A DNA stretch of 64,000 bases from assembly GCA_015178975.1 (NCBI GenBank), contig WHVD01000001.1, positions 3,534,001-3,598,000 of the forward strand, written 5' to 3'. Shown here piece by piece: positions 31,061-43,341 of the stretch (positions are counted from its first letter, which is position 1; each line of letters opens with the position of its first letter). A model generated the notes under the pieces. It worked only from the letters and a program-made list of their open reading frames with translations, had not been told where the DNA came from and searched no databases. The position numbers and the translations under genes are program-made. The DNA is from Hysterangium stoloniferum. Lineage: Eukaryota; Basidiomycota; Agaricomycetes; Hysterangiales; Hysterangiaceae.

Positions 31061-33481
31061 CCCATACCCTGTAATGAATATAATATATCAGTCGATTCTC
31101 ACCATGTGTTGACTGAGATATTATTAGAAACAAAAGGGCAACTGTTGATTGTTTCCTCAAAGACCAAGATACCATCCCCGAACTAAAAAAAATCACATAG
31201 CCACCTGTGGATCATCTATCTTCATTATCTCCTGCAAAATCTGCATCCGAGTATCCATGCAAACAAAGGGCTTGTCCTCCCAATCAAATCTCAAAATTGC
31301 AAGTAGTATATAGGTATTGCAGGATGTGCTTATCTAAGTTCCAATGCATTCTTGTGGGATTTGATAAATACTGAGATAATTTGTTAACAGAATACATGGT
31401 ATCTGGACAGAGATCTAAAAGTCACTTTTCATCACTTACAGCTGTTGCATCATCCACCCAAAATGCAACAACAGCCCAACTCCCATCATCCCATGTTTTG
31501 AAGAATGTAGCACTGTCAAAATCAGAATAGAACCAGGTAATTTCCTTAACCATAAAATTGTATAAGGTTTTTCTCCACTCATTGCCTCCTTGTTTTGTGC
31601 CATATAAAGCTTTCAATAACAGCAATACCAGGTGCTCCTTTCCAGGTTCTTCAAGCCCCTCTGGCTGTTGAACCCAAACTCTTTCTTTCATCATCCCATG
31701 TAAGCATGCTGATTTAACATCAAATTAATGGATGGCTGAATTCATTATTCCTCCCAGTGCTAGTAAAATTCAGAATGTTTCCCATTTCATAACTGGTGCA
31801 TACATTTCATTAAAATGTAATCCGGGAATTTGACTAAACCCATTTGCGACAATTCATACTTTTCTTTTTGCTGATTTGCCATTTTTTTATGATCCACAAC
31901 ACATTGTTAATACATTATGTTCTACCATGTTCTTCCGCTCTGCTTGTCTGGCTTCTTCCCAAGATAATCCTTCATCTCCTGGCATATTCAATGCCTCCTC
32001 TATCATCGGATTGCCCAAAGTCGAGAAAACAACCAGTATGTTGTATTCTTCTAGTTCCTTTTCTTCAACTGACAATGAACTCCGAATTCCTTCCCATAAT
32101 TTTCCAGATCTTGATATTCCACAGGGATAGTCAGGTACATCCAATATCAATTGAGATTCTTTCATTAGCTTAGTTTCTTCTGTTTATTCAATAGGATGAG
32201 GATGAGGTGGGATATGGATCGTGAGTCTAGCTCGAGGCTCACTCCCAGGTTGATTTGGAGGTAAATTATATCCCTAAATTGACCTTCTCTCCATATGGCA
32301 CTGGTGATGGCAATGTCATAGCATCTTCATACCTTTTTGATCCTTCTCATTCCAGGAAACCACACTAAATACCCAGAAGAATATGGCTCATAACCCACTA
32401 AATGACCCATTGTTGAACGTGAGTCCCACTTTTGGCATTTTTGTTTGGGAATTGCCATGCTAACTGGACTTCCACATATGTATATGCAAATGTGATAAAT
32501 CTGGTTTTTCTCCAGTTATTCATTCGAGTGGCATATGTCCATTCTTTGCATGCGATGGACTATTATTCCTCAAATATGCCATTGTTTTCACTGCAATTGA
32601 CCACAAAAAGTTTGAGAAGTTTTGACGCATATAAAAAGCTTCGAGCACCTTCCATTATTTTTGTCCCATATAACATAGTTCTCGCCTCTCCAGTAATGGT
32701 GCATGTTCCTCTTTCCACAACACCCTTCTGCTGTGGTGTATACAATACTGAGGTAAATAACACTATTCCTTTGATAACAGATAACTTCTAAATTCTGAAT
32801 TTATTACCTCAGTTCCATTATCTGTCATAACCCCCTGGACTCTTGTATTAAATAACATCTCCAGTTGGGTTGCATATTCCTTTATGTTGCACACCGCTTC
32901 CAATTTGCTTCCTAATGTTTTGATCCATATAGCATGGGAAAAATTGTCAGCAATGAGAATGAAATAACACTTTTTGTCAAAACTGATTGTTTCCATAGGT
33001 CCTGCAAGATCCATATGAAGCAATTCTCCCAATTTCATTGCTCTGGTACATCCAGTTTTAAATGTGTTTCTGTGTTGTTTACTTTTAATACATGCAATAC
33101 AATTGACTTCAAAACCTTCAATTTCATCAATTTCCATCCCAGTCAAAAAATGACATGCAAGATTCCTAATAGCATTAGTATTCAAATGCCTCCAAATGCT
33201 GATGCCATCACATAATGTTGCATGTCAAATTCGCAGAAAAGACTATAGATACATCTTCCAACCTATTTTGTAGTTCATCATCTGATAAATTCATATATTT
33301 ACATTCTGTCGGCAATGCAGGAATTGTATCCAGCTGAAAGGGATATACATTACCCCTCTCATTCACCTCAATGAGTGCACAGCCCAACAAATCAACAATT
33401 GTTTAACCACTTTTGCTCAACATAATGTGATATCCATGCTTGATAAACTGCATGGGATTAAGGAGTCACACCTTAACTTTG

Positions 33482-35205: not shown

Positions 35206-35427
35206 TAATCAGCATTTGTGATAGCATGTCTGGCCCCCAACATTTTGAGCCTAATGGAATCCATCTGGGCCTGACTATTGGCCAATCGTGTCCTGTAGGT
35301 CATCTTCAAAGTTTCCCATGCATTAACTGGATTACTATCCACCATTATAGCTGCCCTGGGCTCATCTTCAACACACAGCATTATTTCACTATAGGCCCTC
35401 TTCTTACAAAGTTCCCAGGCCTCCTTG

Positions 35428-35671
35428 TGTTAGAAAACATGAGTAATGGAGAAAATGAATAGCCAGGCTGGGGATTGAACCCAGGATCTCTCGATTACAT
35501 AACGAAGGTATTAACCACTACACCATCTGACCTTGGATAGGTTTGGTCTTACACTGTACTTATGGATATAATCCTAAGTGCCATTCCTATTAGATCATAT
35601 ACACACTGAACTCAGAGCTGTACACCATATGGTCCCAGTTGGAACAATGGTTGGTATTATATAATCTAACA
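35428..35671 (-). repeat. 244-bp solo LTR carrying a tRNA-like sequence (fossil)
   Basis: TGTTAGA..TCTAACA ends with a perfect 5-bp duplication CCTTG (35423-35427, 35672-35676), interrupting Copia gag. Very short for an LTR, in the range of TRIM-type miniature elements. On the minus strand, 35461-35532 folds as most of a tRNA. It has no similarity to LTR families A or B beyond the end bases. Confidence 0.8.
35461..35532 (-). tRNA. tRNA-like sequence inside the small LTR
   Basis: Minus strand. Box A-like TGGTGTAGTGG, box B GGTTCAATCC, and a perfect 5-bp T-stem (CTGGG/CCCAG around TTCAATC). The acceptor stem GGTCAGA/CCTGGCT pairs at six of seven positions, with wobbles. The anticodon arm is imperfect; GTA (Tyr) is the reading that keeps U33 and a purine at 37, but TGT is also possible, so identity is uncertain. 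No CCA and no poly-T terminator directly follow. It may be a captured tRNA, a decayed tRNA gene or a pol III promoter used by the element. Confidence 0.5.
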
Positions 35672-36010
35672 CCTTGATCTCAAGCTCCTCCTTCGTAGAA
35701 ACCGTTGAATCTCCATGTACAGGATCCACCAGTTCTCCAGTTACGACTTTCCATTGGTCTAACGACTCGAACATGAGATTCACTAACTATACTATGCGTA
35801 TATAATAGTATATTCGAGAGGAGATAGAAAATTTATGACCCTTATTGCATCTTCTCGAGACATTCTGTCTGACCTTTGTAATACAAGTGCTTGGTTCTTC
35901 AATACTCATTTTCCTAACAATTATATTCATTACAGCTCCTCTATATCATGGTACCTACCTCACCCCAGTACCACATGCTTTCAATGGCCCCCACCCCATC
36001 ATCACCCACT

Positions 36011-39216: not shown

Positions 39217-40681
39217 CCAAAAAAGTGTCCAGATGTTTGGTGAAATTGGAAAGATGGTTTACAGCTCCAGAAATAAAATAGATCAAATTCTGAATAAATC
39301 AGAGGTAAGAGGTATACATCTGACCTACACGATGACATAAGCATGACATCATAGCTTTCCTTATCAGGAAAGTAGGAAATTAATAATGGACATGGTGCAT
39401 CTGGACACTTTTTTTGCTCTTGTAATTAATTACTAGTTTTGCCAGTTTCAGTATTTAGTGTACCCCCCCTTGGCCTTTAGTACTGCAGCAACCCTTCTAG
39501 GCATGCTCTTTATCAATTCAAGGCATTTCTCCCTTGGAATACCCTCCCATTCCACCTCCACTCTCTCCCAGAGCTCCAATATGCTCTTGGGTGCCTCAGG
39601 GTATGTTCCAAGCCTTCTCTTCAACTCCCACCATAAGTGTTCTATTGGATTCAGGTCTGGAGACTGTGCAGGCCAGTCTAAAACCTCCACCTGATGGTCC
39701 TTGAACCAATCCTTGGCCAACTTGCAAGTGTGTTTAGGGTCATTGTCCTGCTGGAAGACAAACCTTTCCCTGCCCATCCCATAATACTCCACTGTTTTGA
39801 AGATATAGTCCTCCAATATGTCCTTCTACATTTCCCCATCCATCCTCCCATCTATCTTGCACATGTACCCCACACCATGTGCTGTCATACATCCCCAAAT
39901 CATTAGACTTCCCCTCCAAATTTGATAGTTCCATTGATATGCTGCTGAGTGAGTGCAGAACCTGGTCTTTTCCATACCCACAACCTCCCATCAGAGCCCA
40001 AATGATTGATTTTGGTCTCATCTGAGAAGATAACCCTAAACCAGTCCTCCTCAGTCCAATGCTGGTACTTGATAGCAAACTCATATTGAGCCTTGATGTG
40101 TTGACAGGCAAGAAGAGGTCTTTTGGCCTTCACCACAGCCTTCAAATTCTCTTTCTTCAATGCATTTCTAATTGTCTGTGTGCAGACATTGAGGGAGAGG
40201 TGGGACTTGGCTTGGGAGGCATTATCAACCTGTCCAGAGGTGATAGAACGAGCCAGGTGGTGATGATCCCTGGGGGAGAGTTTGGGAGGACAACCTCCGG
40301 AAGGTGTTGGAAGTGGACCAGGGAGTTGGGAGTGAATTTCTGATACTGTAGAGTGCCCAATATGAAGTTTAGAAGCAATTGTTCTGCAGGAGTGACCCTC
40401 CTAGAGAAGAGAAATGACAGAGAGCCTTGTTTCAGTAGAGTGCTTCTTCATCATGTGGTGGGGGGGTGAATTGAGGCAAAGGTTCATGTAAATGTGTTAT
40501 TTAAACATGATTGTTCATTTCCTACTTCCCTGATAAGGAAAGCTATGATGTCATGCTTATGTGATCATGTAGGTCAGATGTATACCTCTTACCTCTGATT
40601 TATTCAGAATTTTATCTATTTTATTTCTGGAGCTGTAAACCCATCTTTCCAATTTCACCAAACATCTGGATGCTTTTTTGG
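39217..40681 (-). mobile_element. Tc1-like DNA transposon T5
   Basis: About 1465 bp. The outer ends CCAAAAAAGTGTCCAGATG (39217) and its inverted form ending at 40681 begin terminal repeats of roughly 180-200 bp; an inner inverted tip (CATCTGGACACTTTTTTT) is kept at 39399-39416. TA is not visible at either edge. It sits exactly between two unlike Gypsy pol fossils (G2 and G3), so its flanks are not one disrupted target. Confidence 0.82.
39448..40454 (-). pseudogene. Tc1-like transposase of T5, broken
   Basis: Minus strand, ATG at 40454 (MMKKHSTETRLSVISLL). The DNA-binding part includes ASKLHIGHSTVSEIHSQ, followed by the linker VVKAKRPLLACQHIKAQYEF. Catalytic motifs: IFSDETKINHLGSDG (first Asp), FQQDNDPKHTC (second Asp) and DLNPIEHLWWELKRRLG (Glu, DD34E). 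It ends SMPRRVAAVLKAKGGYTKY at 39448. Lesions: a TAG about 17 codons in (near 40402), a frame change near 39900 after TIKFGGEV, and a stop near 39827 before ILEDYIFKTVEYYG. About 335 codons, full family length. Closer to T1 than to T2 at the C-terminus. Confidence 0.9.
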
Positions 40682-43341
40682 CGAATTTGAGAAGACCAAG
40701 ATTGAGTATTTGGGACTCATTATTTCAGAGGGCCAGGTGGAGATGGACCCGATCAAAGTGGCTGGTGTAGCAGAATGGCCAACCCCAGGTAGCCGCAAGG
40801 AAGTACAGTCCTTCCTGGGGTTTGCCAACTTCTACCAATGCTTCATCAAGGATTTCTCCCACCATGCACATCCCCTGTTTGATCTCACCAAGAAGTACCA
40901 GCCTTGGAAGTGGGGTGAGAAGGAAGTGGATGCCTTCCACACTCTCAAGCATCTGGTGACTTCAGCACCAGTTCTTGCCTTTGTGAAAGATGACCTTCCA
41001 TACCATATTGAGGCTGACAGTTCAGACAGTGCCATGGGTGCAGTACTGTCTCAGCAGTCACAAGAGGATGGCAAGTGGCATCCCATTGCATTCTACTCCA
41101 AAAGCCTCAATGAGGTGGAACATAATTATGACATTCACGATAAGGAGATGCTGGCTATCATCCAGGCACTGGAAGAGTGGTGTCACTTTGTAGAAGGTGC
41201 TGAGCATAAATTTGAGATCTGGACAGACCATAAGAACCTGGAATACTTTCGCACATCCAAGAAGTTGAACCAGAGGCAAGCCAGATAATCACTTTACTTG
41301 GCACAGTTTGACTTTGAAATGCATCATCGTCTGGGAGCCTCTATGGAAAAATCAGATGCTCTATCCAGACGTGCTGACCATGGTTCTGGTGCAGAAGACA
41401 ACAAAGATAGGGTACTCCTCTGACCGGAATTGTTTGCTATTCGAGCATTGGAGGGAGTAGAGGTTTATGGTGAAGAATGGGACATCCTGAAGGATGTCTG
41501 GAAAGGCTTAAAGGAATTCACTCCAGAAGATGCAGTGGCAAATGCCATTCAGGAGATGCAGAAGACTAAAAGCAGGTCTATACAGTCCTCAGAGTGGTCA
41601 GAATCAGAGGGCCTACTCCTGTTTTGTGGTAAGGTATATGTTCCAGACCACTTAGATCTCCGTTGCTGCATCATGGCCCAACATCACGATACCAAGGTAA
41701 CAGGCCACCCTGGCAGATGGAAGACCTTAGAACTCATTTCCAGGAGTTACTGGTGGTCCCAAATGTCCAGACATGTAGGACTCTATGCCAAGACTTGTGA
41801 TGTGTGTTTGTGGACCAAGATCATCCGGCATAAACCTATGGGCCAGTTGCATCCATTGCCAGTCCCCAGTCAACATCAGTGTGGACTTTATTACAGAACT
41901 GCCAGAGGCCCATGGTTTCGATGCAATTATGAATGTGGTCGACTCACTCTCTAAATGGGCACATTTCATCCCTACCATGACCACAGTATCAGCAGCAGGT
42001 ACAGCAGGTCCTTTCCTACAGCATGTTTGGAAACTACATGGCTTGCCAGTGAAGGTGATTTCTGATCAGGGATCACAGTTTGTGGCAGAATTTGCCAAGG
42101 AACTCTATCACTTGCTTGGCATCAAGATAGCCTCCTCTACAGCCTATCATCCTCAGACAGATGGACAGACAGAACATCTCAACATGGAACTAGAGCAATA
42201 CATACAGGTGTTCACAAATGAGCGACAGGATGACTGAGATGAATTACTCCCCTTAGCAGAGTTCCAATACAATAACCACATACATTATTCCACACAACAC
42301 ACACCATTCATGGTTGACACTGGTTGTCATCCACACATGGGTTTTGAACCACATCAGGTGTCATCCAGATTGGAATCAGTAAATGAACTTAAGGAGCATA
42401 TGGCAGATGCCCTATAGGAAGCTAGGGCTGCCTTACAGAAATCGAAGGCTGACATGGTGAGATACTATAACCAATGGCGAGAACCCACTCCAATCTATCT
42501 TCCAGGAGATAAGGTGTTTTTGGATGCAAGTAATCTAGCTACTACTGACCATCGGCCAAACTGGCACATCAGCGTTTGGGTCCCTTCACAGTGGAAAGGG
42601 CAGTGGGCACACATGCATATCGACTACGGTTACCTCAAAAGCTCAAACATTTACACCCAGTCTTCCCTGTTGTTAAAATCATGCTAGCTCCAGTGGATCC
42701 ATTTCCAGGCCACCCTAAGCCCTACCAACCCCCCCCCCAGATCTTGTAGGTAACCAAGAGGAATATGAGGTAGAGGAGGTCCTAGATAGCAGAATGCACT
42801 ACAGGAAGTTCCAGTATCTTATCAAATGGAGAGGTTATGGCTATGAGGAAAATGAGTGGGTGGATGCCAAGGATGTCCATGCACCGGAACTGGTAGCAGA
42901 GTTTCATCGACTACACTCAGGGACACCCAGACCCACTCAGGAGGAAGACTTTGCCATTTTTAGGGACCCCAAGTTGAGGTTGGATAACTCTGGTGTGTCG
43001 GGATGCCACACCTAGATGGGGGGGTGATGTAAAGAGACAAGTCATTCACACCTTATATACCCCAGATTATACTCTACTCTCTATTCCCTTTTATTACCTA
43101 ACCATTGTAGAACACTTCATTTTTTGTAGGGTACATTAAGCTGATGTGTGCGGGCGCTTAAGGCGTGGGAAAATGCATTGCGCACTGTATAGCTGACATG
43201 TCACACCTGGTAGAGTTTCCCTAGACTTTTCTCTTTGGATTCCTCTATCAGGTGAGTAGATAGTTATCTTATATTTAGATACTTATATATACTTTGGATT
43301 CCTCTATCAGTGTGATATCGAGTGCTAGGGTTGCCCTTACA
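40682..43341 (+). mobile_element. Ty3/Gypsy chromovirus fragment G3 with 3' LTR (fossil)
   Basis: Plus strand: reverse transcriptase end (IEYLGLIISEGQVEMDP), RNase H (ADSSDSAMGAVLSQQS and [11 protein letters not shown]), integrase zinc finger and core (VDFITELPEAHGFDAIM, VISDQGSQFVAEFAKEL, YHPQTDGQTEHLNMELEQY), then a C-terminal chromodomain (FQYLIKWRGYGYEENEW), which marks it as a chromovirus. A polypurine run at about 43016-43025 precedes an LTR. The 5' half is missing. Broken, with about five interruptions. Confidence 0.9.
43028..43341 (+). repeat. Probable 3' LTR of G3 (fossil)
   Basis: Starts TGTAAAGAGACAAG directly after GGGGGGGTGA and ends GCCCTTACA, giving TG..CA with TGTAA/TTACA inverted ends, 314 bp. 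It contains a TATATACCCC promoter-like word at about 43055 and a duplicated ACTTTGGATTCCTCTATCAG-like block. The end position is inferred. Confidence 0.5.

Follow-up and report, generated by a model that had tools for sequence, protein, structure and literature searches.

A tRNA-bearing solo LTR in Hysterangium stoloniferum belongs to a Helenus-type TRIM family, and a sister family forms composites with probable Copia relatives

Results

A solo LTR is inserted in a decayed Copia element

The window, meaning the whole 64-kb stretch of DNA analysed, contains a 244-bp solo LTR at positions 35428-35671, bounded by the ends TGTTAGA and TCTAACA and flanked by a perfect target-site duplication, CCTTG, at 35423-35427 and 35672-35676. 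The primer-binding site (PBS) and purine-rich tract (PPT) of the two-LTR copies described below place the sense strand of the element on the minus strand of the window, so the tRNA-like sequence within the LTR lies in sense orientation. When the LTR and one copy of the duplication are removed, a 110-aa minus-strand frame (35208-35786), split by the LTR and running in the same orientation, reads across the site. The piece of this frame on the left flank has a weak Pfam match to Retrotran_gag_2 (E 0.0012; 18.8 bits against a cut-off of 27). On the minus strand, RVT_2 also matches above cut-off at 31422-31724 (E 7.8e-14) and rve more weakly, below cut-off, at 32763-33224, which strengthens the Copia reading; the insertion site is a decayed Copia on the minus strand. 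The unit, its duplication and its position in a Copia gag gene are all present as an earlier note, made from the sequence alone, had described them.

Several mobile-element fragments are present in the window. A Tc3-like transposase fragment (HTH_Tnp_Tc3_2) lies nearby at 39903-40400 on the minus strand, and a reverse transcriptase RNase H frame at 40599-41288 on the plus strand.

The LTR carries a tRNA-like sequence

ARAGORN calls one tRNA in the window, a Thr with anticodon TGT at 35460-35532 on the minus strand; the earlier note had placed the stretch at 35461-35532, with the end correct and the start one base off. The same stretch scores 37.1 bits against RF00005, whose gathering score is 29 bits, and this is the sole Rfam match above threshold in the window. 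Both the tRNA prediction and the covariance model therefore support a real tRNA-like stretch, and 5S or another small RNA in the LTR was rejected, as Rfam gives tRNA only. The T-stem of the window copy is paired and its acceptor stem mostly paired in the predicted fold, in agreement with the earlier description; the fold as a whole is no better than that of shuffled sequence (z -0.28, 74 of 200 shuffles as good).

Two minus-strand motifs within this stretch, TGGTGTAGTGG at 35515-35525 and GGTTCAATCC at 35472-35481, are what we take to be box A and box B. Among 43 family-A LTRs of equal length, 0 of 11 columns vary in the first and 0 of 10 in the second. Compared with the rest of the LTR (0/21 versus 30/223 variable columns), the difference is not significant (chance 0.056) in this sample of young LTRs taken from the best-scoring matches. 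A minus-strand run of four T at 35452-35455, 3' of the tRNA-like part, may act as a weak Pol III stop, and a second T4 run adjoining the LTR end (35434-35437, minus) may also be functional.

The LTR belongs to a dispersed family with complete two-LTR members

The genome searched was the window's own, of 111 Mb in 554 contigs. The best of its five matches to 5.8S (L123) has GCGCTCCTTGGTATTCCGAGGAGCATGCCTGTTTGAGTGTC near its end, which is presumably typical of Agaricomycetes and not of rusts. Among 353 candidates for the window LTR, 40 were scored, and all 40 are full length at 97-100% identity. A 29-nt probe from the tRNA-like part, with at most three mismatches, matches 121 places (46 + 75), and its reversed control none. 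The loci sampled from this family, designated A, are biased toward the best-scoring copies and contain 48 distinct full LTRs, of which 15 are 5' LTRs, 17 are 3' LTRs, one lies between a PPT and a PBS, and 15 are solo.

ARAGORN finds a tRNA in every one of the 48 (37 Thr-TGT, ten with an undetermined anticodon, one Tyr). A main role as a functional host tRNA gene was rejected on the dispersal of the LTR family and on those ten copies. Box B is followed by two runs of at least four T in 45 LTRs (44 T4/T4, one T4/T6) and by one run in the other three, and in 47 of 48 the tRNA-like part is preceded by a TATA-like TTATATCC. Elsewhere in the genome, contig C112 holds dense RF00005 matches at ~0.91-1.22 Mb, on both strands and mostly of 95 nt, which are presumably either tRNA genes with introns or a repeat that carries a tRNA.

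There are 14 distinct two-LTR elements of ~656 bp, typically 244+168+244, and 5-bp duplications flank 13 of them, as they do 14 of the 15 solo LTRs. LTR pairs are identical in 7 of the 11 elements whose LTRs are of equal length, which indicates that family A moved recently. The 168-bp internal part starts with TGGTAGCAACTCC and ends with the PPT, ATTAAGGGGGTG, which precedes the 3' LTR. The PBS lies apart from the tRNA-like part; it corresponds to cellular initiator tRNA-Met (iMet), as the exact 14-nt complement of positions 62-75 at the 3' end with CCA added; three iMet genes were found in the genome by a pattern search allowing at most two mismatches. No mobilisation genes occur in the two-LTR form, the longest frame wholly inside the copy at L030:1501-2156 being 68 aa. 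The proposal that the feature is a TRIM-type solo LTR from a dispersed, tRNA-bearing family with PBS-containing two-LTR forms is thereby borne out, and none of the findings named beforehand as refuting it (copies without the tRNA-like part, no tRNA score, no further copies) was encountered.

Among 27 exact 16-mer matches, a search that is blind to a Copia with a different LTR end, no Copia partner with the 3'-end PBS of family A is found: 19 matches are family A, six are family D (see below), one is the right edge of the unit at L048 and one is other. At L048 a family-A unit with one LTR, bordered on each side by a PBS copy, sits in a Copia pol gene; one flank matches RVT_2 (E 4.9e-62) and the other has no Pfam match. 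At C212:~48.4-49.1 kb (L028, L049, L050), family-A pieces are inverted and the 3' LTR stops at base 121.

Sister families share an internal core

A core of ~85 bp from the internal part of family A recurs elsewhere in the genome and is common to families A, B, C and E. A 21-mer from the core, with at most three mismatches, matches 123 places, with 91 exact among the 100 matches listed and one in the control; none lies inside the window. From the 123 matches, 69 distinct sites were classified: 15 belong to family A, 43 adjoin a PBS of the GGTTATGGGCCC type, and 11 have no recognised adjoining PBS. The GGTTATGGGCCC-type sites make up family B with its close kin B2 and E. Seven of the 11 PBS-less sites form family C, in which the core lies inside an LTR-like unit, followed at most sites by a tRNA-like stretch; L055 ends before that point. 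Family D (L092-L096, L121) has the PBS type of family A and lacks the core. RF00005 scores above threshold in 9 of 12 loci tested (A, B, B2, D and E) and in none of three family-C loci.

Families A and B align at 59 of 72 positions across the tRNA-like part, and 37 of 39 are alike in the tRNA 3' part and just beyond; 5' of the tRNA-like part lie 139 bp in A versus 34 bp in B. The PBS of family B is complementary to iMet positions 25-39, in the anticodon arm. Where a 5' LTR is recognised, 27 of 35 family-B rows have 5-bp duplications, with seven further rows lacking such an LTR; the other eight are four inner junctions of two tandems, the composite L100, the truncated tandem L105, L075 and L082.

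The whole internal part of family A folds as one hairpin (z -4.30, 0 of 200 shuffles as good), at whose base the PBS pairs with a motif resembling the tRNA's own 3' end. This iMet-3'-like motif is common to families A and D. A corresponding PBS-motif hairpin is not significant in B (22/200) or in four D internal parts (17, 72, 129 and 144 of 200), so a general role for it is unsupported. The core alone forms a sense hairpin matched by 0 of 200 shuffles in A and by 12 of 200 in B, which is not strong; for the antisense hairpin the counts are 14 and 140 of 200.

Several loci of family B, or with the core, have irregular structures. At L076 (C57:~845.7 kb) the 5' LTR is cut inside box A, TAATGGTTAACACC, with a perfect GTCCG duplication, and at L088 (C104:~117.1 kb) it is cut at the same base of TAATGGTTAACACC, with a perfect ATCAC duplication. 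The tandem at L105 (C168:~280.1-280.9 kb) is 5'-truncated in its internal part, with a 7-bp flanking match, AAGAATG, in place of 5 bp. At C520:241279-241743, three core copies are spaced 220-224 bp apart, versus a period of 283-285 bp in family-B tandems. The 129-bp 3' LTRs of B2 type in the rows tabulated occur at L071, L090 and L102, all composites, with no ordinary B2 element there.

Family B forms composites and tandems

Foreign sequence lies directly before the PBS in 5 of the 43 family-B sites (L071, L077, L090, L100 and L102), and three of these five composites appear Copia-related, by similarity or by short motifs. Two, named here C124 and C58 after their contigs, are seen at both ends, and in each one perfect 5-bp duplication surrounds the foreign element together with the Helenus unit (the family-B part; see Discussion). 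C124 (L090, L091) begins with a 307-bp LTR, a PBS and a leader; a second copy of the LTR follows 4.1 kb on (306/307 identical), and after it come the Helenus internal part and then the Helenus LTR, with ACAAT flanking the whole composite. A minor part of the 3.8 kb separating the two LTRs was read, and a frame in it, ahead of the second LTR, gives LASADNLTDMFTKSF; we take this motif to be a Copia RNase H tail.

C58 (L077) consists in turn of an LTR, the Helenus internal part, the Helenus LTR, the foreign internal part and a further LTR. AATAC flanks the composite, and the outer LTRs match at 99%. Within the first 1.3 kb of the C58 internal part, the stretch that was read, the leader shares 79% identity with the C124 leader across 204 bp. 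C58 may thus be assigned to Copia through its similarity to C124, which is itself a candidate Copia by a short motif. Both foreign elements have a PBS exactly complementary to iMet 26-39, against 25-39 in family B. The core, with at most four mismatches, is found neither in the 701 bp of Copia-family leader at L091 nor in the 1309 bp of L077 that follow the C58 unit.

The remaining composites were seen less completely. L100 has the layout of C58 at one end, with a different LTR; L102 has a pol end, TKALPKPKVEKFRSMMGL, before the PBS, without a Pfam match, which we take to be a Copia-like motif; and L071 has an LTR-like stretch before the PBS.

Two homotypic tandems of three LTRs are each enclosed by a single duplication. 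L080 (CTATC) has identical outer LTRs, from which the middle LTR departs at two positions. In L069/L070 (TCGTG) the outer LTRs are two differences apart and each is one from the middle, so the pattern of like outer LTRs is absent.

Discussion

The window feature is a Helenus-type LTR on every Helenus feature that could be tested, and its kind has already been described. Helenus (TRIMp3) comprises TRIMs with tRNA-derived LTR sequence in fungi, animals and one plant, and the fungal members are reported from rusts and a few Agaricomycetes (Kojima 2024, PMC10886601, cited throughout from part of its text). The earlier note had regarded a tRNA-like sequence inside an LTR as unusual; it is not a new kind, given that 2024 description. 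For annotation, Helenus-like families can yield many tRNA gene calls that are no tRNA genes, and Table 2 of that paper gives hundreds of such calls in some rusts (PMC10886601).

We consider it probable, at roughly 80%, that the window feature is what LTR-LTR recombination left of a 656-bp Helenus-type TRIM mobilised by Pol III transcription and Copia-type enzymes. Boxes A and B would serve as a Pol III promoter in the 5' LTR, and read-through of the short T4 runs would give a full-length RNA ending in the 3' LTR. The enzymes of a Copia-type element would then reverse transcribe and integrate this RNA, and recombination between the two LTRs of the inserted element would leave the solo LTR. Copia as the mover is suggested by the composites, which are seen in the sister family B; no Copia with the family-A PBS is among the 16-mer matches.

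Two other accounts of the tRNA-like part were weighed against this Pol III mobilisation. The element might be an ordinary Pol II TRIM that picked up the tRNA-like part as a passenger with no role as a promoter, which we judge unlikely. The TATA-like TTATATCC upstream in 47 of 48 LTRs would suit it, as would the lack of significant excess conservation of boxes A and B in family A (0.056). Against it, tRNA-like LTR sequences are kept across families A, B, B2, D and E (RF00005, 9/12 loci), in sense orientation, and A and B align at 59 of 72 positions there, yet differ upstream in length (139 versus 34 bp). Still far less probable is a tRNA-derived SINE, moved by a LINE, inserted beside or inside an unrelated LTR: although tRNA-like heads are typical of SINEs, and a SINE inserted into a TRIM LTR is the origin that Kojima proposes for such families (PMC10886601, in part), the moving unit here is bounded by LTRs with fixed 5-bp duplications (13/14 two-LTR, 14/15 solo) and its two-LTR forms have a PBS and a PPT. 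The SINE is already contradicted as a present-day mechanism and may hold as a distant origin.

For the family-B composites, co-packaging followed by strand transfer at the shared PBS is the best reading of the sequences, and the joining to Copia-family elements supports it. Copia and Helenus RNAs would enter the same particle; a plus strand whose end lies in the shared PBS would switch to the other genome, and the product, now mixed, would be integrated. For one composite that mixed molecule would have had a Copia and a Helenus LTR at its opposite ends. A precedent exists in the composite-type signature described for template switching between related LTR elements (Sabot and Schulman 2007, PMC1950507, of which part is drawn on here). 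The composites might instead have arisen after integration, if one-LTR Helenus circles underwent homologous recombination, at the PBS in common, with Copia elements already in the genome, and would then be uninformative on co-packaging. This alternative is a serious contender, if a somewhat doubtful one. It predicts the L077 and L100 layout (foreign LTR, Helenus internal part, Helenus LTR, foreign internal part) equally well; the single-LTR family-A unit of L048, flanked by PBS copies within a Copia pol gene, is of the kind it expects, and the unlike outer LTRs of L069/L070 (two differences, each one from the middle) also favour it. It fits C124 less well, where the Helenus unit lies after the foreign 3' LTR, ACAAT lies beyond the Helenus LTR, and only about four bases (AACA) could guide a post-integration event; and L080, with identical outer LTRs and a differing middle one, has the template-switching pattern of Sabot and Schulman 2007 (PMC1950507, in part). 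Judged from sequence, circle recombination would explain C58 and L100 equally well and C124 poorly.

The fuller interpretation, in which the composites are fossils of TRIM and partner RNAs held in one particle, primed on the same iMet stretch and joined by a jump at the PBS with integration in a single step, and in which the core is the packaging signal, is tentative and falls slightly short of an even chance. The packaging role of the ~85-bp core is a guess, as the core is absent from the Copia-family leader pieces examined. Fungal Helenus partners have been assigned indirectly, from similar PBSs and a single alignment of internal sequence (Kojima 2024, PMC10886601, in part). If a TRIM and a Copia-family element are joined within a single target-site duplication, the genome itself would record directly which element mobilises which, and an integrase would be seen to take one LTR end from each; no case of a TRIM joined to a Copia-family element was met in a literature search at listing level. 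The shared core provides a defined candidate packaging signal; with two PBS types directed at the same tRNA within a single genome, primer switching can be put to the test.

Comparison with known systems

Family A agrees with Helenus in having two LTRs within less than 1000 bp and no mobilisation genes, a tRNA-derived LTR sequence with boxes A and B, a PBS and a PPT between the LTRs, and the 5-bp duplications of fungal members (13/14 two-LTR, 14/15 solo, and the window copy). Families A and B also agree with it in the PBS, which in many fungal families lies on the 3' end or anticodon loop of initiator tRNA-Met. Copia is the suspected mover of fungal Helenus, as it may be here for family B, and Pol III transcription is left unproven by Kojima (PMC10886601, as far as the text drawn on extends). 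The families differ from that description in the iMet-3'-like internal motif of families A and D; the ~85-bp core and the Copia composites are without mention in the parts of it used here (PMC10886601). A SINE, which lacks LTRs and moves by LINE target-primed reverse transcription, does not match these elements, with their LTRs, PBS, PPT and fixed 5-bp duplications.

Cassandra likewise has an LTR that contains the sequence of a small RNA gene, Pol III promoter included, and forms tandem LTR-internal-LTR arrays, but its sequence is 5S rRNA, not tRNA, it occurs in plants, and its autonomous partner is called unknown (PMC7215508, in part). No 5S rRNA-derived LTR sequence is found here, only RF00005 scoring above threshold in the window. 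The Triticeae complexes resemble the arrays in having three LTRs, one flanking 5-bp duplication and similar outer LTRs; they join close relatives, whereas the composites in this genome join Copia-family and Helenus elements, with different LTRs, at the PBS (PMC1950507, for the Triticeae complexes, in part).
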